This document shows positions 129 through 42,095 of a stretch of DNA of 44,019 bases, piece after piece (within the stretch, counting starts at the first letter, position 1; the number at the start of each line of letters is the position of its first letter). The DNA lies in IMG/VR virus record IMGVR_UViG_3300003886_000010, positions 1 to 44,019 of that record. The stretch is one strand, 5' to 3'. The notes under the pieces were generated by a model. That model was not told where the DNA came from. It worked only from the letters and a program-made list of their open reading frames with translations, and did not search any database. Both the position numbers and the translations under genes were made by a program. Source of the DNA: a virus.

Positions 129-773
129 ATGGCGAGTGCAGAAAAGAGCCTGGTGTTCAAGAACACCAACAAAGAGCTGGACCACGTTCTGTCCAGAGTT
201 TTGACCCACGTACTTGGAATCACCCACGGCGTTATATCGAGGCACAAAGACATCTGGGTGCTGGCGGACGTTGCGGCTCATGGGCAGTACAACCTGCCGA
301 AATCTGTGCAGGCTTACATCCGCATGAAGCTGGAACTCGACGGGCGCGCAGAGGTGGGGCGCACCAGTGAGCGAGGTAAGCAAATACACCAAGCCGCCCG
401 CAAGCTGCAACTGCAAAACGACGTTAGCGAGGGCATCCTCGTCAAACGCAGCGATGCATCCGCAGTTGTGTCCGAGCTTGCTAACGGGATCAGGTCGGGA
501 CTTGCGGCTCTGCCCGGAAGACTTGCTAATGTCCTCGCTGGTACTTCGAGCCCCGGCGAATGCAAGGCGCTTTTAGATGCCGAAATTGAGGAGCTACTTA
601 GAGCTATTAACGTTATCGTTTCAAAGAACTTCGTGGAACCCGGCGCAAAGAGAGCTGGGCAGGGTGGCGGCGCGGATACTAAAGCCGACGCCAAACCGAA
701 CGCCCGACCAGTGGGCCGACGAAAATCGAATACTCCCCCCCGGAAGCGCCGAGCCCGGAAGGTGGCGAAGTAG
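129..773 (+). CDS. Terminase small subunit (Nu1-like)
   Basis: 214-residue candidate small terminase subunit, which would recognise the packaging site and hand DNA to the large subunit. It directly precedes a gpA-type large terminase. Residues about 100-165 have the pattern of Nu1/DUF1441-like phage proteins: an ILVKR segment, a helix with RSGLAALPGRLANVLAG, then an acidic ALLDAEIEELLRAI helix. The C-terminus (about 170-214) is strongly basic and low in complexity, with many Lys/Arg/Pro, so probably disordered and DNA-binding. The ATG is preceded by TAGGACCCAACGAA, matching the leader before many other genes in this window. The last 197 nt overlap the large subunit in another frame. No clear N-terminal winged-helix motif is visible, so the call rests on position and pattern. 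Confidence 0.7.
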   Translation: MASAEKSLVFKNTNKELDHVLSRVLTHVLGITHGVISRHKDIWVLADVAAHGQYNLPKSVQAYIRMKLELDGRAEVGRTSERGKQIHQAARKLQLQNDVSEGILVKRSDASAVVSELANGIRSGLAALPGRLANVLAGTSSPGECKALLDAEIEELLRAINVIVSKNFVEPGAKRAGQGGGADTKADAKPNARPVGRRKSNTPPRKRRARKVAK

Positions 774-2637
774 TCGCGTCCCACACATGACTCCGATATG
801 TGCTCAGGTTCGCAACCCGCAGGCAACAACTGTGGTAGCTGTGATGGGTAGCCAAATGGCAAAGAGTGAGACCGCGCTCAACGTTATAGGTCAGCAGATT
901 GATGATGATCCAGCGCCGTGCTTATACATCGCCCCCACAAAATCGTTTTGTGAGAAAGTTATCGAGCCGCGTTTGCGCGCCATGCTTAACGACACACCGT
1001 CGCTTGCCGCAAAAAAGAAGGGTGGTAAACAAGAGCAGAAAACGCAAAAGGAAATTGCGGGTGTAAAAATTCGCTTGGCGTGGGCGGGTTCTGCCACAGA
1101 GATTTCGGGCGACCCGGCGAAGCTTGTTTTTGTTGACGAGTATGATCGGTGCGATGATGACGTCGGCGGCGAGGGCGACGTTAAAGAGCTGGCTGACGCG
1201 CGCCACTCGACCTACGCTGGGGGCCAGACCTGGGTTTTCTCAACCCCGACTGACGGCCAGGCCGAAACCGTTGTAGAAGAAAGCAGCGGCTTGGAGTTTT
1301 GGGCGCAGCCAACGGACCCCGAAGCTATCCAGTCAAAGACCTGGCAGCTTATGCTACAAGGAACGCGACACCACTGGGCCGTTCCTTGTCCGCACTGCAA
1401 AGAGTTTTTTATACCTCGGTTTAAAAACTTGGTGTGGCCAAAAGAAGCTTCAGCAGAGGAATCGCTCTCGTCAGCAACGTTAAGTTGCGGGCAGTGTGGT
1501 TCGTTGATCGATCAGATTTACAAAACGAAGATGCACGCGCGCGGTGTGATGGTTGCACCTGGACAACGCATCACCAAGACCGGCAGGGTTTTGGGTCTGG
1601 TTAAAGATAACTCTATCGTTTCATTCTGGGTGTCGGGGCTTATGTCACCTTGGAAAACCTGGGGCGACCGGGCGGCTGCGTTTATTCGTGCGCTCAACAG
1701 CGGCTCGACAGAGAAGATACAGGCCGTTATTAACACCGGGTTCGGAGAACTTTTCTCCATCGGTGGCGAACGTGTTGACGAAGACGTTGTTAAGCAGTTG
1801 CGGCAACCTTACAAGCAAGGTGACGTGCCGGAGGCTTTGAACCATTTGGTTGCCGGTGCGGATATCCAAAAAGAGGGCATCTATTGGAGTGTCAAAGGTT
1901 TCGGCGCGGATATGATTAGCGGGCTGATTGACTATGGGTACATCCAAGGAGATACGTCGAAGCTAGAAGTTTTTGACGCCTTGGCTTTGCTGAAGGATCG
2001 ACACTACCGAGGTCTACCCATCGAGCGTATGTTTATCGACTCGGGTTACAGAACCTCGGCGGTGTACGAGTTTTGCCGCCGCGATGGTATGCGTGAGTGG
2101 GCCATGCCATCCAAAGGCCGTGACACAATAGAAGCATCGCCGCTGGTGCGCACTAAGCTCGACGTTGGGCGTAACTCAGGGCGGCGGCTGCGCTCAGGCT
2201 TGGCCATCTGGAACTTGTCTACCGACTACTTTAAGCGCTGGCTAACAGATCGGTTTGAGCGTGACCCTTCGATGCCTGGGGCGTTCATGCTCCCCGAAGA
2301 CGTTGGCCTTGAATACATCAGAGCGCTGCGTTCAGAGACGCGCATGGTGCGGCCTAACGGGCGCCCATCTTGGATAAAGCTGGACCCGTTTAACCACTAC
2401 TTTGACTGTGAGGTCATGGCCCTGGCGGCCGCGTACTCGCTGAACTTCCAGATGGTTACCGGCGATCAGGCTGACCGTGAACGACACCGCAACAGAGAAC
2501 GCGAGCAGCGCGACGCGCAGGCGCTAGCCAACGAGGGGGGAGGTAAAAACGACCCCTTTAGAAAAGCTCAGAAGCAAAACAACACCAGCGGCGGAGCGTT
2601 TAGAAGCGGTCGTGGCGGTTGGTTCGGGAGACGCTAA
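577..2637 (+). CDS. Terminase large subunit, gpA family
   Basis: 686-residue ATP-driven packaging motor and nuclease of the lambda gpA family. Visible in order: the family's N-terminal signature DQWADENRILPPGSAEPGRW (44-63); an ATP-binding loop GSQMAKSET (91-99); Walker B LVFVDEYD (183-190); a motif III-like FSTPTD; a CPHC...CGQC zinc-binding set near 270-310; and the nuclease acidic residues in GADIQ, MFIDSGYR and the C-terminal FDCEVMAL. Length matches the family (about 640-690). The start at 577 lies inside the small subunit gene; the conserved N-terminal signature is encoded at about 706-765, so the overlap must be real at least from there. The Arg/Gly/Asn-rich C-terminal tail is probably flexible. 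Confidence 0.96.
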   Translation: MPKLRSYLELLTLSFQRTSWNPAQRELGRVAARILKPTPNRTPDQWADENRILPPGSAEPGRWRSSRVPHMTPICAQVRNPQATTVVAVMGSQMAKSETALNVIGQQIDDDPAPCLYIAPTKSFCEKVIEPRLRAMLNDTPSLAAKKKGGKQEQKTQKEIAGVKIRLAWAGSATEISGDPAKLVFVDEYDRCDDDVGGEGDVKELADARHSTYAGGQTWVFSTPTDGQAETVVEESSGLEFWAQPTDPEAIQSKTWQLMLQGTRHHWAVPCPHCKEFFIPRFKNLVWPKEASAEESLSSATLSCGQCGSLIDQIYKTKMHARGVMVAPGQRITKTGRVLGLVKDNSIVSFWVSGLMSPWKTWGDRAAAFIRALNSGSTEKIQAVINTGFGELFSIGGERVDEDVVKQLRQPYKQGDVPEALNHLVAGADIQKEGIYWSVKGFGADMISGLIDYGYIQGDTSKLEVFDALALLKDRHYRGLPIERMFIDSGYRTSAVYEFCRRDGMREWAMPSKGRDTIEASPLVRTKLDVGRNSGRRLRSGLAIWNLSTDYFKRWLTDRFERDPSMPGAFMLPEDVGLEYIRALRSETRMVRPNGRPSWIKLDPFNHYFDCEVMALAAAYSLNFQMVTGDQADRERHRNREREQRDAQALANEGGGKNDPFRKAQKQNNTSGGAFRSGRGGWFGRR

Positions 2638-8553: not shown

Positions 8554-10680
8554 ATGAAAAGAGGTAAAGGCAAGCCCAGCTCAACGCGAATTAAGGGCAC
8601 TATATTCCGCTCTGTTGAGCTGGCCCGCGATGCGGTTATCAGCGAGGACGAGCGACTTGTGAGAATTTCCTTCTCAAGCGAGAAACCCGTACTACGGGCC
8701 GATTGGTTTGAGAAGCCGTGGGTTGAGGTTCTAGGACACAACGACGGCGAAATGAATACGGCAAGACTGGACGCCGGGGCCACACTTCATTATAACCACT
8801 CCCGAAGCCGCGAGGATCGCATCGGCGTTGTGGAATCGGCGACCCTTAAGAACGGACGCGGCGAGGCGATTGTTAGATTCTCTAAGAACGAACGCGTTGA
8901 CGATATTTGGGATGATGTAAAAGATGGAATCCTAAGAAACGTTAGCGTTGGTTATTCAATTGACGAACGTCAGCTTGTAAAAGATGGCGGAAAGGGAGAG
9001 CCGGACGAATTTAGAGTAGTTCGCTGGACACCGCACGAACTTAGCTTTGTAGACATCCCCGCAGACCATACGGTTGGCGTGGGTCGAAACTTAGCTGACG
9101 GCACGATGTATCGAAGCGCGGAGGGTAACAATCCCCTATACCGAGTCGAAAGCATCAACAACCCGAACTCTCAACCAGGAATCAACGAAATGAAACTACG
9201 AAAATACGAAGGCGAGACCGACGAAGAACTCAAAATTCGGCAAACAGCAGAAGATGCTCGCGTCGCCGCAGAGGAAGCCACGCGCGCCGCCGAGCTAGCT
9301 ACCCCAACCCCGGCACCGACACCCACACCAGCCGCCCCAACCCCGGCACCGGCAGTTGATGAGGCTGCAATTCGAGCACAAGGCCGAGAGGAAGAACGTG
9401 TACGACGTGATGCTATTGGTTCAGCCATTGCACCGTTCCAACGACAGCTCGGCGATGCGTTTGCGACGGTGCGAGATCATTGCATCACTGAAAACCTTGA
9501 GCTTGACGCAGCGCGCACTTACATAATGGCGAAGCTTGGCGCAGGGCAAACCCCCGTAGGTGGTGAGGCGCGCAGCAACGCCTCTGTTCAAGAGACTGAC
9601 GTACAAGCGTTTGCGCGCGGCGCTAACCTGGCTATCCAAATGCGCAGCGGTTTGATTGTGAAAGGTTCCGACGAGGAAAAAGAAGTACAGCGAGACGCCG
9701 TTGCGGGTTATTCGCTGTTCGAAATGGCGCGTCGAATGTTGGAGCTTGGCGGAACTGAGAGCGGGCGACTCGGCAAAATGGAACTAGTTGGCCGGGCGTT
9801 TACGTCTAGCGACTTTCCTTTGCTGCTGATTGACGCGGCAAACAAGATGATGCTGAAAGGGTTTGAGGAGGCACCGGAGACTTGGCAGATGTGGGCACAA
9901 ACCGGCAACCTCTCAGACTTTAAAATCGGCAATCGTCCGGGCCTATCAAGTTTTGATGATCTGTCTTTGGTCAGCGAGGATGGTGAGTTTACCTATGGTT
10001 CGTACACCGAGCAGGCGGAAACGATACAGCTTGCGACCTATGGTAAGTTGTTTGCGATTACTCGCCAGGCGATCATCAACGACGATCTCAGTGCGTTCAC
10101 TCAGATACCGGCTAGAATGGGCCGCGCGGCTTCCCGACTAGTGGGTGACCTTGCTTATGGCGTCATAACGGCCAACCCGCTACTTACTGATGGCGTAGCG
10201 TTCTTTGCTGCTGGGCACAACAACCTAAACTTAGGTGGTGCGGCGGTAATCAGCGCGGCTTCTGTAGCGGCTTCACGTAACGGTATGGCGCTGCAAACCG
10301 ACGCAAGCAATTCGGCAACCGGCTTAAACATCCGACCGTCGTACTTGCTCACCCCGCTCGCAATTGAAGATGCGGCAACTGTGCTGATGGCCTCTGAGAC
10401 TAACCCCATATCTGTGAACTCGCGGGTGCCGAACCCAGTTCGCAACTTGGCGCAGGTTGTAAGCGATCCTCGCTTGGACGCAGACTCTACAACTCGCTGG
10501 TACATGGCTGCTTCGCAGGTTTTTGATACTATCGAGGTTGCGTTCCTCGACGGCATCCAAGCACCGACGTTAGAGCAGCAGCAAGGTTGGAGCATCGACG
10601 GGACAGAGTTTAAGGTTCGGCTTGATGTAGGTGCCGCACCTATGGAATTCCGCACTTGGCAGCGTAACGACGGCGCATAA
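8554..10680 (+). CDS. Prohead protease-major capsid fusion protein
   Basis: 708-residue fusion. Residues about 1-190 are a U35/HK97-type prohead protease: candidate catalytic His82 in ATLHYNHSR, Ser131 in LRNVSVGYS, and the HELSFVDIPADHTVGVGR strand. Residues about 215-320 are charged and helical with a Pro/Thr/Ala-rich linker near 249-268, suggesting a scaffold (delta-domain) segment. From about residue 410 onward it is the capsid subunit (SSDFPLLLIDAANKMML; QLATYGKLFAITRQAIINDD; AYGVITANPLLTDGVAFF), similar to Mu gpT-like/HK97-fold heads. Self-cleavage would release the capsid from protease and scaffold. No separate capsid gene exists in the window, so this is the sole source of the shell. 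Confidence 0.92.
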   Translation: MKRGKGKPSSTRIKGTIFRSVELARDAVISEDERLVRISFSSEKPVLRADWFEKPWVEVLGHNDGEMNTARLDAGATLHYNHSRSREDRIGVVESATLKNGRGEAIVRFSKNERVDDIWDDVKDGILRNVSVGYSIDERQLVKDGGKGEPDEFRVVRWTPHELSFVDIPADHTVGVGRNLADGTMYRSAEGNNPLYRVESINNPNSQPGINEMKLRKYEGETDEELKIRQTAEDARVAAEEATRAAELATPTPAPTPTPAAPTPAPAVDEAAIRAQGREEERVRRDAIGSAIAPFQRQLGDAFATVRDHCITENLELDAARTYIMAKLGAGQTPVGGEARSNASVQETDVQAFARGANLAIQMRSGLIVKGSDEEKEVQRDAVAGYSLFEMARRMLELGGTESGRLGKMELVGRAFTSSDFPLLLIDAANKMMLKGFEEAPETWQMWAQTGNLSDFKIGNRPGLSSFDDLSLVSEDGEFTYGSYTEQAETIQLATYGKLFAITRQAIINDDLSAFTQIPARMGRAASRLVGDLAYGVITANPLLTDGVAFFAAGHNNLNLGGAAVISAASVAASRNGMALQTDASNSATGLNIRPSYLLTPLAIEDAATVLMASETNPISVNSRVPNPVRNLAQVVSDPRLDADSTTRWYMAASQVFDTIEVAFLDGIQAPTLEQQQGWSIDGTEFKVRLDVGAAPMEFRTWQRNDGA

Positions 10681-13468: not shown

Positions 13469-13490
13469 GCAAAACTAAAGGCCCAACTTT

Positions 13491-29154: not shown

Positions 29155-29168
29155 GGGGTTGGGTCCTG

Positions 29169-29483
29169 TTATGAGTTTGCTATTTTACGTTGCTCAAGCA
29201 GCCAAACCGTTAAACGGTTAGATGCTTCGCTGTTGTTGTGCTTGTCGGGGTGAGTGAGCCTTATGAGGGCGTCTATCTCTTTGTTAAACTCGTTACGAAA
29301 CCTATCCACCCCCAAACCTGGCCCGCCTAAGAACGCGCTTTCCGGTTGGCCGTTGCGCCCCTTCCAGGTGCCATCATCTATCTTGGACTGACGCCAGCAA
29401 GCAAAGCATTCGAGAGCCCATTTCTTTTCTGGGTCTACTTTAAACTCCTCCCCACAGCTTGTGCAGTCACGAAAATACGCCAC
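29169..29483 (-). CDS. Zinc-ribbon protein with HPD (J-domain-like) motif
   Basis: 104-residue protein: Cys7, Cys10, Cys26 and Cys29 form a zinc ribbon, and residues 70-95 contain RLTHPDKHNNSEASNRL, where HPD at 78-80 is the signature that stimulates DnaK ATPase. The full J-domain is not present, only its helix II end and loop. Starts at GTG within the TAGTG overlap of the DNA polymerase stop; the leader AAGGACCCGACGTA lies inside the end of the polymerase gene. It may recruit host DnaK to the replication machinery (inference). Confidence 0.75.
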   Translation of the reverse strand: MAYFRDCTSCGEEFKVDPEKKWALECFACWRQSKIDDGTWKGRNGQPESAFLGGPGLGVDRFRNEFNKEIDALIRLTHPDKHNNSEASNRLTVWLLEQRKIANS

Positions 29484-31438
29484 TACGTCGGGTCCTTAAA
29501 CGGTTTGAGCTGCGCCCACGACTTACCAGACCACGCGCCGTCTGTAGGTAGTGACACGTCTAGTTGTAAATCCTCCATCGCTTCGCGCATCAGCGACATT
29601 TCTTTTCGCCAGTTGCCGCGCGCCGAGTTAACCACCATTTGATCGTAGACCTGTAACCTGATATCCAACCCGGCGGCATCGACTTGCAGCATCGCTTGCT
29701 TGGTGAGGTCCGCAGCGCTGCCCTGGATTAGAAGGTTGAGCATCTTGTAGTCAAAATCCATCCAACGCCGGTGCTGTCTGGAATACTGCGGGGGCTCGCA
29801 GGTGTACAGCCGCCCGCCGTAGGTTCGCATTGGTACGTTTTGCTTGACCATCGCTTTAAGCTCTGAGCTTAGGTCAGCCACCCCCGGCATGGCATCCATG
29901 TATACCGACTTCATTTTTCTGGCGGTGTCTCGATCTGTGCCAAGCGCTTCTGCCAGAGCGTCTACACCGCCACCGTAAATAACCATGAACGCAATGATTT
30001 TAACGGCCTTGTGGGGTAGGTCTATACCAACGATGTCTAGTATCAATCCGCGTACCATGTGATGCACGTTCATTTTTGGGTTGGCTAACATCGCATCCAT
30101 TAACGCGCCGTTCTCGTAGTGCGCCAGCACGCGCATTTCTTGTTGGGCATAGTCACGGTCGATAAAGACGCAACCCTTATCTGGCACGATGTAGTCCCGC
30201 ATCCCCAGGAACTCAAGGTTGTACTCGGTAAGTAGAAGACTAGCCAACGCCATCAGCACGTCACGATTTTTCGACTCGCTAACGTCAACGGGTATGTTGT
30301 TAAAGTTTGGCTTAGAGACCGACGGCCGCCCGGTTTTTGTGCCCCGCGTTCCACGTCCGCCATGCTCGTCGGTGGTGCGTATCAGATTGAACGTGGGGTG
30401 TATGCGGCCGTTGCCCGCAGTCCCGGCGTCTATCCACGCGCTAAAAAATGTGTTGCAGTAGGTGTCTATCACCGAGTGCATACCCATATCTAGCATCAGT
30501 CGCTTGTCTTTGCATATGGGTATAAGATTTTGTAGCGACGTTGATCGCTGCCCTTTTGGGTGTGTGTCGCTGGGTTGCGTGTAAATCCAGCGCGTCGGGT
30601 CTATTTTGCCGGATGCTTCTAGTGCGTCAGCGACCTGCTTAGAGCTGTTGAGGTTAAACACACCTTTCGGCAGCGTGGCCTCAAGCTTCTTTGTTATTTT
30701 TAGACGGCTTTTTATGCGGCCGTTGAGTTTGGTACGCAGGTTTTCGAATTTCGGCAGGTCACGCTTGAGGCGCGTTTGCGCAGTGAGTAGGCCGCTACGC
30801 TCCATCTTCAGCTTAATGCGTATCAGCTTTAGCTCGCGCGCATAGGCATCGAGCATCCCCATTTGTTTTATTAGGGGGTGCAGCAGCTTGAACAGCTTCA
30901 GCGTTCTGATGGTATCGCCTTTGGCGTAACGACCCACCAGCTTGCCCGGCGCTTGCGCTATGTACGCCCCCCAGTTAGAGGCCGTGAGCTTCTTACCTAA
31001 CGGTGGCGTAACGTTCGCCATGATCCACAACCGCAGCGCCGCTTGCTCGTCGGGGGGCATATCCAGCCAGGTATCGGCTAAACGCTTGAGCGCTAAGCTT
31101 TCCTCACGCGGGTTGTTTAGGTAGGCAAGCAGTTCAGTGTCGTGGTACTCAGTCTTGCCGATGATAGGCAGGCCCAGGTGTACCTCCCCCACGTCATGAT
31201 CGAAAGCTAAGTTGTGACAGATTATGGCGTGGCTTTTTATAAAGGCGCGGATGTCTTTGGTGGCTCTGGCGCGGGTGGTGTTGTTGTTAAGGGGGTGCCC
31301 CCACGCGAGGTAGATCGGCTTGCCGCCCTCGGGGTAGAGGGAGCAGCCGACTGGCGCGGGTGGGTAGGCCGGTCGATTTTCAATGCTTTGGGTTTCGTAG
31401 TCTAGGGCTGCCAGTCTCATGTTGTTAGTGCCATACAC
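29483..31438 (-). CDS. DNA polymerase, family A, with 3'-5' exonuclease
   Basis: 651-residue replicative polymerase. Exonuclease motifs: Exo I DYE (13-15), Exo II HNLAFD (75-80), Exo III YxxxD (171-175). Polymerase motif A FIDRDYAQQEMR with Asp429; motif B KIIAFMVIYG with Lys480, Phe484 and Tyr488; motif C QVYDQMV with Asp599. In motif C the usual His-Asp-Glu is replaced by Tyr-Asp-Gln, and the Arg four residues before the motif B Lys is His. No 5'-3' exonuclease domain is present. GTG 31438 is preferred because TAAGG lies 6-10 nt before it; ATG 31420 is an alternative. The start overlaps the small zinc protein by 14 nt. Confidence 0.95.
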   Translation of the reverse strand: MYGTNNMRLAALDYETQSIENRPAYPPAPVGCSLYPEGGKPIYLAWGHPLNNNTTRARATKDIRAFIKSHAIICHNLAFDHDVGEVHLGLPIIGKTEYHDTELLAYLNNPREESLALKRLADTWLDMPPDEQAALRLWIMANVTPPLGKKLTASNWGAYIAQAPGKLVGRYAKGDTIRTLKLFKLLHPLIKQMGMLDAYARELKLIRIKLKMERSGLLTAQTRLKRDLPKFENLRTKLNGRIKSRLKITKKLEATLPKGVFNLNSSKQVADALEASGKIDPTRWIYTQPSDTHPKGQRSTSLQNLIPICKDKRLMLDMGMHSVIDTYCNTFFSAWIDAGTAGNGRIHPTFNLIRTTDEHGGRGTRGTKTGRPSVSKPNFNNIPVDVSESKNRDVLMALASLLLTEYNLEFLGMRDYIVPDKGCVFIDRDYAQQEMRVLAHYENGALMDAMLANPKMNVHHMVRGLILDIVGIDLPHKAVKIIAFMVIYGGGVDALAEALGTDRDTARKMKSVYMDAMPGVADLSSELKAMVKQNVPMRTYGGRLYTCEPPQYSRQHRRWMDFDYKMLNLLIQGSAADLTKQAMLQVDAAGLDIRLQVYDQMVVNSARGNWRKEMSLMREAMEDLQLDVSLPTDGAWSGKSWAQLKPFKDPT

Positions 31439-36417: not shown

Positions 36418-37188
36418 ATGAGCAAGCTAAATTTCGCGATCCATTGCGGCGGTAGAGAAGTAACCGAGGTCGAAGTCGATCAAGCGGCGAGGCCCGCAGC
36501 GACGCGCAGCTATTGTCCAGTCCCGCACCTGGGCCTAGCCAACCTTATCGAGCGCAGCGCTAAGAGCTTCGGCTTTGCTTTTGGCGAGCAGGCGCACGCG
36601 CTCAATCGTGGCGGCAACCAATACTTTGGTATGGCGGAGCTGCGGCACGAAAACGAAAACGATACCTTTGCCCTGGTGGCGGGGTGGCGAAACTCCTACG
36701 ACAAGTCGTTGGCGGCGAGCTTTGTCGTGGGCTCTCAGGTGTTTGTGTGCGACAACCTAGCGTTCTCAGGAGAGCAGAGCTTTGATCGAAAACATACGGC
36801 CAATGTGCTGCGGGACTTGCCGACGTTAGTGCGTGGGGCGGTTTCTCAAACCGAGGCGCTGGCGCAAAAGCAAGAGGCTCGGTATACGCGCTATCAGGCC
36901 GCCATTGTGACGAAAGATAGCATCGCTAACGACACCATCATTCGACTTTTGCAGATTGGCGCCATAACTACTCAGCGGGTAGAGCGGGTGGTAAATGAGT
37001 ACTACGAACCTAGCCACATTGAGCATTTGAACGGCATCGGCAATCGAACAATCTGGACTCTGTTCAACGCCGCAACCGAAGCCATGAAGGGCGTCGGCTT
37101 GGCCCAGCTCCCCAAGAGAACAATGGCGCTGCACGGCGCAATGGATGAAGTTGCAAACTCCCTGATAAGCGCGCAGTATCCGCACTAG
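36418..37188 (+). CDS. DUF932 family protein
   Basis: 256-residue DUF932 (phage/plasmid-like) protein. Recognisable are CPVPHLGLANLIERSAKSFGF near the start, the central GWRNSYDKSLAASFVVGSQVFVCDNLAFSGE segment, and helices toward the C-terminus (RVERVVNEYYEPSHIEHL). DUF932 proteins are common on phages and plasmids; their biochemical role is not settled. The gene is followed by a strong terminator 56 nt downstream, so this unit is transcriptionally separate. Confidence 0.88.
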   Translation: MSKLNFAIHCGGREVTEVEVDQAARPAATRSYCPVPHLGLANLIERSAKSFGFAFGEQAHALNRGGNQYFGMAELRHENENDTFALVAGWRNSYDKSLAASFVVGSQVFVCDNLAFSGEQSFDRKHTANVLRDLPTLVRGAVSQTEALAQKQEARYTRYQAAIVTKDSIANDTIIRLLQIGAITTQRVERVVNEYYEPSHIEHLNGIGNRTIWTLFNAATEAMKGVGLAQLPKRTMALHGAMDEVANSLISAQYPH

Positions 37189-37529: not shown

Positions 37530-37711
37530 AACCCTAGCGGCCGTCGCATAAATAAGACGGCCTTAGAGCCGTCTCGAAAGGTGAGGGAGACGTTCGGTAG
37601 CGGACGGTCGTTAAGCCGCGCCTCTAGCGTGTTTATGGCTGCGCGTATTTGCGAATCCGTTAACCCCTCGATTGCGCGCAGTCGGGGGGGTGGTGGGTTG
37701 CGTATGCTCAT
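37466..37711 (-). CDS. Small basic hypothetical protein
   Basis: 81-residue protein: a Pro/Arg start, a helix (GLTDSQIRAAINTLEARLND), then a strand pair and an Arg/Trp-rich end. ATG overlaps the upstream TAA by one nucleotide (TAATG). No family is recognised. Confidence 0.6.
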   Translation of the reverse strand: MSIRNPPPPRLRAIEGLTDSQIRAAINTLEARLNDRPLPNVSLTFRDGSKAVLFMRRPLGLWQRWCLWLAAIDYRRTRWAD

Positions 37712-37989
37712 TAGAGGCCTTTTGGCGCATCCGCGCTTGGCCCGCCAGCGCGATTTTCCCGGTCCTGGTCATAGCCAAAATCTTCCGACACCCCCTCGGC
37801 GACCCAATCTAGTTGTACTGAGTCTATCCAATGGCCCTCTACCATTTCGTTGCTTTTTTTGCCCGACCTTGGCTTAACACAAAACTGTAGGCACCCGTTG
37901 AGGTACTCACAACGCGCGATAGTGATCCCCTTAAACCCCGTTATCACGCAGCGCACTTCTGAACCCAATGGCGTGTTCCATTTAATCAT
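37711..37989 (-). CDS. Conserved small phage beta-barrel-like protein
   Basis: 92-residue protein with [29 protein letters not shown] then [13 protein letters not shown]. The xVTGFxGxxxxRxEYLNGCxQ pattern is one I associate with a widespread small phage protein, probably an SH3-like barrel. The ATG lies 8 nt inside the csrA 3' end, so translation is coupled to csrA. Function unknown. Confidence 0.75.
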
Positions 37990-38161
37990 CGTCTTTCCTC
38001 TCTTGCTGTATGCGTTGGTAAATTTCTTCTCTGTGGATGGGCGTGGCTTCGGGGGCGGTAATGCCTAAGCGCACTTGGTTGCCCTTCACCCCAAGCACGG
38101 TCACAACAATCTCGTCTCCGATCATAACCCGCTCGCCTATTTTCCGAGTAAGGACTAGCAC
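37982..38161 (-). CDS. csrA: Carbon storage regulator CsrA homolog
   Basis: 59-residue RNA-binding translational regulator. The sequence follows host CsrA through its full length: [18 protein letters not shown], the [11 protein letters not shown] strands, and [14 protein letters not shown]-contact residues Leu4, Arg6 and Arg44 are present. CsrA dimers bind GGA-bearing loops in mRNA leaders, usually blocking ribosome access. The GTG start has GAGGGGGG seven bases upstream. It lies between a cupin-like gene and a small conserved protein gene that overlaps its last 8 nt. It may redirect host metabolism, or regulate the phage's own mRNAs, many of which have AGGA in the Shine-Dalgarno. The C-terminus is a short acidic DDD rather than the longer E. 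coli tail. Confidence 0.93.
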
Positions 38162-38174
38162 CCGACAGCCCCCC

Positions 38175-38711
38175 TCAAACTATCCTATTGAGCGCCATTT
38201 TAACGTGGCGCTTGAGCAAGGCTGCGTCTGGTTGGTTTTCAAAGGCGTGCTCAATCGGCTTTTTTTCGAGCGACACGATACGTGCGCGATAGCCTTCTAG
38301 CGTCGCTGTCTTGGTCATTACGGAAACAGTGAGCCTACCGTCTGCCGGTATAGTGTCGTGAAAACAACTCGGACCCCCAACGCCGTAACTCTCCCCCGCA
38401 ACTATGCGCCTTTCAGATATCTTCTCTATGTCACACTCGCCGTAATACTCTAGCGGCGAGGATTTGTCGCTGAACGTCGGCCCTTGTTGGTATAGCGTGT
38501 GCTCGCAGTCCGTCCCTATTTTTACCGCGTAGCGTACATCTATTAGCGCGCCCAGCAGCACTTGTGATATGAACGTAAAGCGGTGGTCGTGTATGCGCGC
38601 ATTTTGTACGCGCGTTGCAGGCAGGTCTTGCGACCAAATGTGCAGTCGGGTCAGTTCGTTTAGGTAGACTTGGATAAAGCCGTTGCCGTGAAATCGGGGT
38701 TTCAAAATCAT
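38175..38711 (-). CDS. Cupin-like phage protein
   Basis: 178-residue protein with a cupin-like metal pattern: [17 protein letters not shown] near 40-56, then [29 protein letters not shown] at about 104-132. The two His-x-His/Glu-type motifs fit a small beta-barrel. Catalytic role unknown; I recall homologs in phage early regions. The ATG is preceded by TAAGGACCCAACCTC, one of the clearest copies of the shared leader. Confidence 0.7.
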
Positions 38712-38779
38712 GAGGTTGGGTCCTTAGTTGATTTAAGAAAAGCGCCGGAGCAATCGACGCAGCCATGCCAATATCCGCT

Positions 38780-39801: not shown

Positions 39802-40037
39802 CTAGGTTTATCCTTCTCTGTGCATGGCTCGCTGGCCTCTGGCAGTCTGGCTGTTACCTCGGCGAGTTTACGAATTGATTGGGTCGCGGCTTGAAGCGAT
39901 CTAGCGCAGGCTACCATCGCATCGGCGAACTCGTCTATGGTTGACTCAGATGAAACACTGACCACGGGATGCTCTATTGTCTTGCGCAGGAACGCCGGAA
40001 CGTCGTGCTGGTCTATACCCACCTCGCCATCCTTCAC
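39798..40037 (-). CDS. Small hypothetical protein
   Basis: 79-residue helical protein (TIDEFADAMVACARSLQAATQSIRKLAEV) with charged ends. GTG start in a TAGTG overlap with the primase stop; AAGGT lies 6 nt upstream. Its stop overlaps the next ATG. Unknown family. Confidence 0.58.
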   Translation of the reverse strand: MKDGEVGIDQHDVPAFLRKTIEHPVVSVSSESTIDEFADAMVACARSLQAATQSIRKLAEVTARLPEASEPCTEKDKPR

Positions 40038-42070
40038 TACGTTACCTTACCCCGTATAGATTTCTCGTTTTGTATATCCCACTGCTGGCCCCATTCGCCA
40101 GAGCTTCGAGCGTTCCAAATCTTGCGGTCGCGCAATGCCCACAACCGTAGCGGACCTTTTTTAGTGCGGGCTATCCGTTGCCGAAACCCGGCTTTTTTGA
40201 GCCCGCGCCCCAAGGCGTTACCGCTTGTACCCCTACGGCCAATTGGGTCGTAGATTGCAAGCGCTTCGCTGGGCTTGAACATAACCTTCGCTGAGATAGC
40301 GCCCCCCAGACTCAGGGCAAGCTCCGGGTTAGTTTTCAGGTCCTCGCACCAGGCATCTATATCGCTAAAGCTGGTTTGTACCATATCCGCGTGGGCGGCG
40401 CTCGCTGGGGGGTTGGCGGTTGGGCTGAACCCATCGCAGTTGACCTTGTGCTGTAGGTGGTACATCAAATGCCGCGCACCTATACGGCCCCCAACCGGCC
40501 CCCGCCATGCCCGTAGCTTTGCATAGAACAATCGTGTGAGCGGAGCCTCCGGCACCTGGCACACGGCATAACGCCGGTCGCCGCGCTCTATGTAGATAGC
40601 GTCAAAGTGGTTAGACGTAAAGAGGTAGTTAACGGTATCTCTTAAGCGGTATTTAGTTTCGAATTTTTTGTTTACTGTTATCGACTGGCGCGTGATTAGA
40701 CCCTTAAGCTTGTCTGCGTGTTTACGCGCATCCCGCCCGGTTGCCACAACTTCATCAGCAAGGCAGAACTGCCTACGCGCGAACGCATCATTAAACTTGT
40801 CCTCTAAATCGTCTTGCGTTAAAAGGGAAAAATTCTCACCGTAGATGTCGCCGATGATCTCCCCTAGAAAAGTTTTACCCGTGCCTTGGGTTGGGCCATG
40901 CATTACAACGGCGCTGTACAGCTTCGCGCCGGGGTTCTGAATTGGGTAGGCGAGCCACTGCCAAAACCATTTTTTAAGCGTTGAGTCGCCAGCCAACAAA
41001 TAATCGACCAACTTAACGAACGGCCGCAAATCCCCCTTTTTTGAATCTACCCCCCACCCTGGCCAAACGTTGTACGCGCCTTTCTCTGTTATCTCAGGCT
41101 CCGCAGGTTCATATGTGATGTCGGTGTGCGTCCGTCGCTGCGACCACTCGCGCCAGGCTTTAAACGCGTTAACCGTTTTGGTTTTGCCTGGGTTGGCCTC
41201 GGTGGGGCATGGCTCGTTATAGAAGCGATTTGCAAATGCGCCGTTCTCTAAAAACACGGCGTTTTTTACTAACGCGGCTTGTCTGAAGTGGTAGTAACTG
41301 CCATGGCCTTCTATGTAGGCGACCTCGCTCTGTAGCGCCCAAAGTTCTGCACTACCCTCATACTCGTTGTCTAAAGCTGCGGCTAGCAGGGCTTCGAGTG
41401 CTGCGCTGCGTTCGCGTGCGGCAAATGCTGCGAGGTAATCATCGAGCCCGGTTTTCCCCCAGTCATTGACTTCTGGTATGTCACATATGTACACGTGCGC
41501 ATCACGCTCTAAATAGCGTTTGGCTAGAGTGTTTTGCTCGCGGATGATGTCTGGGTTGTCCTGCTTGTCGCTATCAAAGGCGATGATAACGGCGCGTCCG
41601 CTAAGCTTAAAAGCATCAAGCTCTGGTAGAAGGTCGAAGCCGCGTTTGCGTGCCTGGTACATTGCAACACCCCCCAGACCAATAACGTTACCTCCCGCAA
41701 AGCACCCGGCGGCGGCTTTTTTCTCCCCCTCGGTAATAACGATTGTTTGCTCCGCGTCTTTTTCTACGGCCCTCCAGTTTATAACCGGGGGGAAGTATGC
41801 GTGTGGGGGTGTGTCGGCGGGTCCGCTGTAGCGGGGTGCCTTTGTCAAGACCTCACCAAAAGCGCCTTGTGCAGCTTCGAGATAACGCACACGGTAATAC
41901 TTAGTGGGTTTGCCGTTGGTGTTGAAGTAGGGGATTTTATAGCTGGCTGCGGGTAGGTGGCTAAGGTTGGTAGTTTGTTGTTTGGTTAGAACGCTAATCT
42001 TGAGCTGTTTTATTTGCGCCGGGGTAATGCCAGAGCGTGAGAAGTCTTTTTGCATTCTTGCTTGCGTCAT
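40037..42070 (-). CDS. TOPRIM (DUF3854)-SF3 helicase replication protein
   Basis: 677-residue primase/helicase-like protein. Residues about 80-220 form a DUF3854/TOPRIM-like domain: VITEGEKKAA with Glu114, GLGGVAMYQA, and AFDSD with Asp166 and Asp168. The helicase part (about 330-520) is superfamily 3/DUF5906 type: Walker A GPTQGTGKT (392-400), Walker B FCLADE (435-440), and sensor YLFTSN (482-487). The C-terminus (about 590-677) is basic with a winged-helix-like look. No separate polymerase-type primase domain was seen, so primer synthesis is not proven. It probably opens the origin and drives replication with the phage family A polymerase. Leader AAGGCCCAACCCC precedes ATG. Confidence 0.92.
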   Translation of the reverse strand: MTQARMQKDFSRSGITPAQIKQLKISVLTKQQTTNLSHLPAASYKIPYFNTNGKPTKYYRVRYLEAAQGAFGEVLTKAPRYSGPADTPPHAYFPPVINWRAVEKDAEQTIVITEGEKKAAAGCFAGGNVIGLGGVAMYQARKRGFDLLPELDAFKLSGRAVIIAFDSDKQDNPDIIREQNTLAKRYLERDAHVYICDIPEVNDWGKTGLDDYLAAFAARERSAALEALLAAALDNEYEGSAELWALQSEVAYIEGHGSYYHFRQAALVKNAVFLENGAFANRFYNEPCPTEANPGKTKTVNAFKAWREWSQRRTHTDITYEPAEPEITEKGAYNVWPGWGVDSKKGDLRPFVKLVDYLLAGDSTLKKWFWQWLAYPIQNPGAKLYSAVVMHGPTQGTGKTFLGEIIGDIYGENFSLLTQDDLEDKFNDAFARRQFCLADEVVATGRDARKHADKLKGLITRQSITVNKKFETKYRLRDTVNYLFTSNHFDAIYIERGDRRYAVCQVPEAPLTRLFYAKLRAWRGPVGGRIGARHLMYHLQHKVNCDGFSPTANPPASAAHADMVQTSFSDIDAWCEDLKTNPELALSLGGAISAKVMFKPSEALAIYDPIGRRGTSGNALGRGLKKAGFRQRIARTKKGPLRLWALRDRKIWNARSSGEWGQQWDIQNEKSIRGKVT

Positions 42071-42095
42071 GGGGTTGGGCCTTATGCTGTGCTGA

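Follow-up and report, generated by a model that had tools for sequence, protein, structure and literature searches.

The window, a whole virus record of 44,019 bases that is possibly a fragment, encodes an intact, well-preserved member of the CsrA family, the small RNA-binding proteins that bacteria use to choose which messages get translated. The gene lies at 37982–38161 on the minus strand, is real and probably functional, and is best explained, in a reading that we consider reasonably probable, as a source of extra CsrA acting on host messages. This reading is supported by an intact family member, by the RNA-contact residues that it retains, by its context in the replication block of the phage, and by a codon pattern of constraint, and its tight spacing with its neighbours (a 13-nt gap on one side and an 8-nt overlap on the other) was also counted in favour. 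Phage csrA genes are already documented in PHROGs families and published surveys (PMC7366521; PMC8450108), and the copy described here is an ordinary new example of them.

The csrA gene and its product

The initial annotation had the coordinates of csrA right, and the 59 codons and GTG start that it reported are borne out by the listing of open reading frames (ORFs). It had given no strand; on the minus strand, the start codon GTG occupies 38161–38159 and the stop codon TAA 37984–37982, and frame 1 of the plus strand contains in-frame stops across 37982–38161. The 59-residue product has matches in Pfam, PHROGs, the PDB, and Foldseek, at levels well past what chance would give. What had been described as a nearly full-length CsrA proves to be a complete domain, as PF02599 is matched end to end (model positions 1–53 of 53; 92.4 bits against a cut-off of 27; E=1.7e-26), and in PHROGs the protein matches phrog_9500, "CsrA-like regulator" (E=3.6e-29). 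PDB entry 1y00, "Carbon storage regulator", matches residues 1–56 (E=3.7e-23), and the solved chains 1vpz and 1y00 share 67–68% identity with the window protein, position 42 being Ile in the window copy and Val in the 1y00 chain. The residues that had been singled out are all present, namely L4, R6, GVKGNQVR (24–31), and HREEIYQR (43–50, including R44); we take L4, R6, and R44 to be RNA-contact residues.

CsrA proteins have a fold of five strands and a C-terminal helix and form an interlocked dimer. Structure prediction, proposed at the outset as a check, yielded an AlphaFold2 monomer model of middling confidence (pLDDT 77.9, pTM 0.57; from a 20-row alignment), with three strands of 3 or more residues plus a helix, which gave 15 Foldseek matches at E<=0.001, all of them to CsrA/Rsm chains. 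For 13 of these 15 matches the rmsd is 6.1–9.5 A, as could be expected when a single chain of an intertwined dimer is modelled.

The phage record and the surroundings of csrA

The gene belongs to the phage: csrA follows the primase in a minus-strand block, and the record also encodes terminase, portal, capsid, and tail proteins and a DNA polymerase. The terminase large subunit (577–2637, plus strand; PHROGs) marks the record as that of a tailed phage, and the plus-strand structural genes comprise those for both terminase subunits, the portal, the head protease/capsid, a minor tail protein, and the tape measure. By its phrog_9500 match and its presence on a record that also encodes a terminase, portal, capsid, and tape measure, csrA belongs with the phage CsrA-like regulators. 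An ORF of 708 aa at 8554–10680 on the plus strand appears to fuse the head maturation protease with the major capsid protein (phrog_4523, "major head and protease protein", and phrog_133).

The minus strand carries genes for a SNF2-type helicase, a PD-(D/E)XK exonuclease, a family A DNA polymerase (29483–31438, downstream of csrA on the same strand), and a primase-type replication protein (40037–42070; DUF3854 and DUF5906, PHROG DNA primase), the last upstream of csrA in the same block and separated from it by four ORFs, as chosen by hand from the listing. The immediate neighbours, both on the minus strand and of unknown function, are an upstream gene of 178 aa, 13 nt away from csrA (38175–38711; phrog_4784), and a downstream gene of 92 aa (37711–37989; phrog_16275; from the ORF listing and PHROGs), and the ATG of the latter falls inside the 3′ end of csrA, an overlap that suggests coupled translation. 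Within the minus-strand replication block is also a plus-strand DUF932 gene (36418–37188; PF06067, 31.3 bits). Between polymerase and exonuclease is a minus-strand gene (29169–29483) for a 104-aa protein that has an HPDKH stretch and no Pfam match; two phages with related primases carry an annotated DnaJ-domain gene downstream of that primase.

On sequence likeness, the host is likely gammaproteobacterial; terminase similarity extends to Vibrio and Halomonas phages (34–40%) and a Microcystis phage (40%), and primase similarity to phages of Pseudoxanthomonas and Stenotrophomonas and to one unassigned siphovirus (32–33%). The record yielded no match to PF00589 (integrase), PF00239 (resolvase), or PF01381 (HTH_3), and a PHROGs scan of 40 proteins, a subset of the ORFs, turned up no integrase. 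On a record that may be a fragment, these negatives leave the lytic lifestyle given in the initial annotation as a supposition.

The csrA leader

On the minus strand, a Shine-Dalgarno-like purine-rich stretch, GAGGGGGG (38169–38176), can be read from the sequence 7 nt before the GTG, sharing bases with the upstream gene's stop codon, and folding of the leader yields a possible weak hairpin, CTCAA-TAGGATAGT-TTGAG (38174–38192, minus strand). Both bear on an alternative that we regard as unlikely, namely that the protein chiefly sets the timing with which phage genes are translated, its own operon possibly included. The location of csrA in the replication block would suit such a role, as would the hairpin, which presents one GGA in its loop, 24 nt before the csrA start, and places its 3′ arm over the Shine-Dalgarno-like stretch; the hairpin is, however, not significant, being equalled by 23 of 200 shuffles, and the leader holds a single GGA and no ANGGA. 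Further points against a phage-directed regulator are that, in the leaders of 45 chosen ORFs, 17 of 52 GGA sites fall in predicted loops, under lax criteria and with no shuffle control, and that phage csrA leaders show no excess of GGA at −60 to −19 (15 of 32, with 16.7 in shuffles). An autoregulatory hairpin or an excess of GGA in the window csrA leader, considered as a candidate feature in its own right, was rejected on the same shuffle and motif counts. No CsrB/RsmY-type RNA was found in the phage by Rfam at gathering thresholds.

The csrA gene of E. coli regulates its own expression. Cellular csrA leaders are enriched in GGA at −60 to −19 (50 of 63, against 37.3 in shuffles, with 0 of 300 shuffles as high), as is expected if csrA regulates itself, whereas the viral leaders as a set are not. 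Comparison with other Shine-Dalgarno-bearing ORFs points in the same direction (59/75 cellular csrA leaders against 42/124 controls, and 14/31 viral ones against 76/171). The shuffle comparison followed a thinning of similar leaders, which removed 4 of the 36 viral leaders and 17 of the 80 cellular ones; a first control set of 572 ORFs included some that had no Shine-Dalgarno, which the second set required, the window leader being excluded. ANGGA, for its part, is raised in viral csrA leaders at −120 to −19 (24, against 15.5 in shuffles; 3 of 300 as high), stands at 10 against 6.4 at −60 to −19 (26 of 300 as high), and occurs anywhere in the leader in 27 of 31 viral csrA genes and 69 of 171 controls, mostly within the Shine-Dalgarno zone. 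Phage csrA genes, that of the window included, may have shed a GGA-rich leader, in which case the phage copy would escape feedback and, in infected cells, override host titration of CsrA, a proposal that we find doubtful. Given that ANGGA is raised in the viral leaders, that the controls come from a simple ORF caller, and that the cellular rows are related to one another, feedback escape is put forward as a suggestion only.

Other signals were observed in the record. A motif near AAGGACCCAAC stands 3 nt before five start codons (at 115–125 and 13477–13487 on the plus strand and at 29158–29168, 29487–29497, and 38715–38725 on the minus strand), those of the terminase small subunit, ORF 13491, the exonuclease, ORF 29169–29483, and the gene above csrA, and a variant of this putative ribosome-binding motif (42073–42082, minus strand) precedes the primase. 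With at most one mismatch, AAGGNCCCAAC has 14 matches against 3.14 expected (0 of 100 shuffles had as many), and the other 9 of the 14 are not so placed before any listed start. A perfect 6-bp inverted repeat, GCGCCA...TGGCGC with 8 nt between its arms (38192–38211, minus strand), occupies the end of the gene above csrA, immediately before the csrA leader.

Distribution, conservation, and origin

A tblastn search with the window protein (E<=1e-3) found csrA in 85 of 50,697 phage records, 75 of which are Vibrio and Pseudomonas records; the 85 include many near-identical isolates and at least one large bacterial contig (AGRM01000002.1), and no Escherichia-named record is among them. Of the annotated phages compared, Providencia PSTCR8lys and Pseudomonas phi297, H66, and Fyn8 have csrA close to repressor or early genes, and in two Vibrio phages it is surrounded by small genes, most of them without annotation. 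Peptide patterns recovered 29 viral (IMG/VR) and 80 genome loci with csrA; with flanks of up to 10 kb each, no neighbour is common to the window csrA and the 29 IMG/VR loci at E<=1e-4, and weak primase, helicase, or terminase matches occur in four of the 29 (L017, L022, L026, and L028).

Searches for relatives of the phage itself, in sets that may lack records very near the window, found none that is close: blastn of 1401 bases around csrA against phage records gave no match, and primase and terminase queries of IMG/VR, which as single-protein queries reach close relatives only, gave no confirmed relative. The gene upstream of csrA matches three IMG/VR loci, in records that have no csrA. PF02599 was found in 0 of the 11 distant relatives checked that share the terminase, the primase, or a neighbouring gene, namely the three records just named (possibly fragments), searched for the domain at E<=0.001, and 8 picked by hand from the top rows of lists of 564, 315, and 15 records, searched at E<=0.01; the upstream gene is matched in 307 records, and the count refers to the 11 relatives checked. 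As the gene is missing from these relatives, csrA looks accessory in the window phage and would not be needed by this general phage type. The same absence weighs against the reading as extra CsrA for the host and, together with the lack of neighbours in common with the 29 other csrA-carrying viral loci, favours the view that the gene is a decaying or neutral passenger acquired from a host.

Such a passenger is nonetheless quite improbable, as the frame is intact, the named residues are retained, and divergence is biased to third codon positions. L4, R6, and R44 are identical in 80/80 cellular and 35/35 viral homologues (115/115), which is in part a product of the search itself, some of its peptide patterns having contained these residues; the set also takes 6 of the 85 tblastn-matched phage records and includes an identical viral pair (L020/L021) and a near-identical one (L029/L030). 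Other positions are freer among the viral copies (H43 in 22, G24 in 15, and N28 in 15 of 35), and the window copy keeps all three. The best cellular homologues are gammaproteobacterial, at 69–73% identity (e.g., Porticoccaceae L064, Halomonadaceae L035, and Kushneria L034), and the viral copy L005 is as near. Against two of these, differences at codon positions 1/2/3 number 14/6/35 (L064) and 14/7/36 (L035); falling mostly at third positions, they fit protein-level constraint, as expected of a constrained protein. GC contents at the three codon positions are 0.65/0.32/0.58 in csrA and 0.59/0.44/0.59 in nine core phage genes, and the agreement at position 3 likewise speaks against a passenger.

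A tree of CsrA sequences, with 105 of 117 rows (12 were dropped as duplicates after trimming to 62 residues), places the window copy among long viral branches with no starred support, the nearest row by path being the cellular L035 (Halomonadaceae). The tree does not settle the origin of the window copy.

Comparison with known CsrA systems

The window protein shares with the chromosomal CsrA/RsmA proteins of Gammaproteobacteria (PF02599) a full-length domain and the named RNA-contact residues; unlike them, it is the product of a phage gene that sits below a primase and has neighbours of unknown function. The phage CsrA-like regulators of PHROG 9500, 5527, and 8397 have the same Pfam domain, by tblastn or annotation, and csrA is carried by Pseudomonas phages phi297, H66, and Fyn8, Vibrio crassostreae phages, Providencia PSTCR8lys, and Burkholderia JC1. 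The CsrA proteins of phi297, H66, and Fyn8 have 123 aa, with a C-terminal extension, whereas that of the window has 59.

Published reports set these phages in a wider context: csrA was counted in 30 of 2,517 phage genomes and occurs also on plasmids (PMC7366521), and single occurrences are noted in a Vibrio phage (PMC12038007) and a Burkholderia phage (PMC10269572). RsmA lowers CRISPR-Cas expression and activity in Serratia, and phage RsmA homologues, present in GenBank and IMG/VR, are proposed in the same report to suppress defence (PMC8450108). Knockdown of the csrA homologue of phage PTXU04 (PTXU04_00028) is reported to lead to smaller plaques (PMC11879866); a lowering experiment reported elsewhere (PMC7553319) was also counted in favour of the reading as extra CsrA. 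That a phage CsrA reprograms the host or times phage genes, as the initial annotation supposed, is plausible and has been put forward before (PMC8450108; PMC7366521), with one functional test, the PTXU04 knockdown, in another phage. Virion-carried CsrA delivered on injection, as suggested for gp47 of Burkholderia phage JC1, would by analogy be conceivable here but is highly improbable, since the JC1 evidence is a single CsrA peptide detected in virions and JC1 csrA lies between portal and capsid genes (PMC9144972), whereas the window csrA lies in the replication block, on the strand opposite the structural genes.

Proposed role and outlook

Under the preferred reading, in which the phage adds CsrA to that of its host, the layout of csrA within the replication block would imply co-transcription with the surrounding minus-strand replication genes and hence early expression. 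The protein would then form a dimer and bind host messages at GGA hairpins close to their ribosome-binding sites, tilting the host translation programme to the benefit of the phage, for instance by promoting active growth over biofilm, storage, and CRISPR-Cas expression. Against this stands a Salmonella study in which host csrA was reported to inhibit the release of a prophage (PMC12371270), so that extra CsrA does not necessarily help a phage.

The window thus adds one intact case, from a phage for which no close relatives were found, to a set of phage CsrA proteins whose role has barely been tested. If functional, the gene would provide a single-gene route by which a phage may shift host translation, possibly including that of defence genes.
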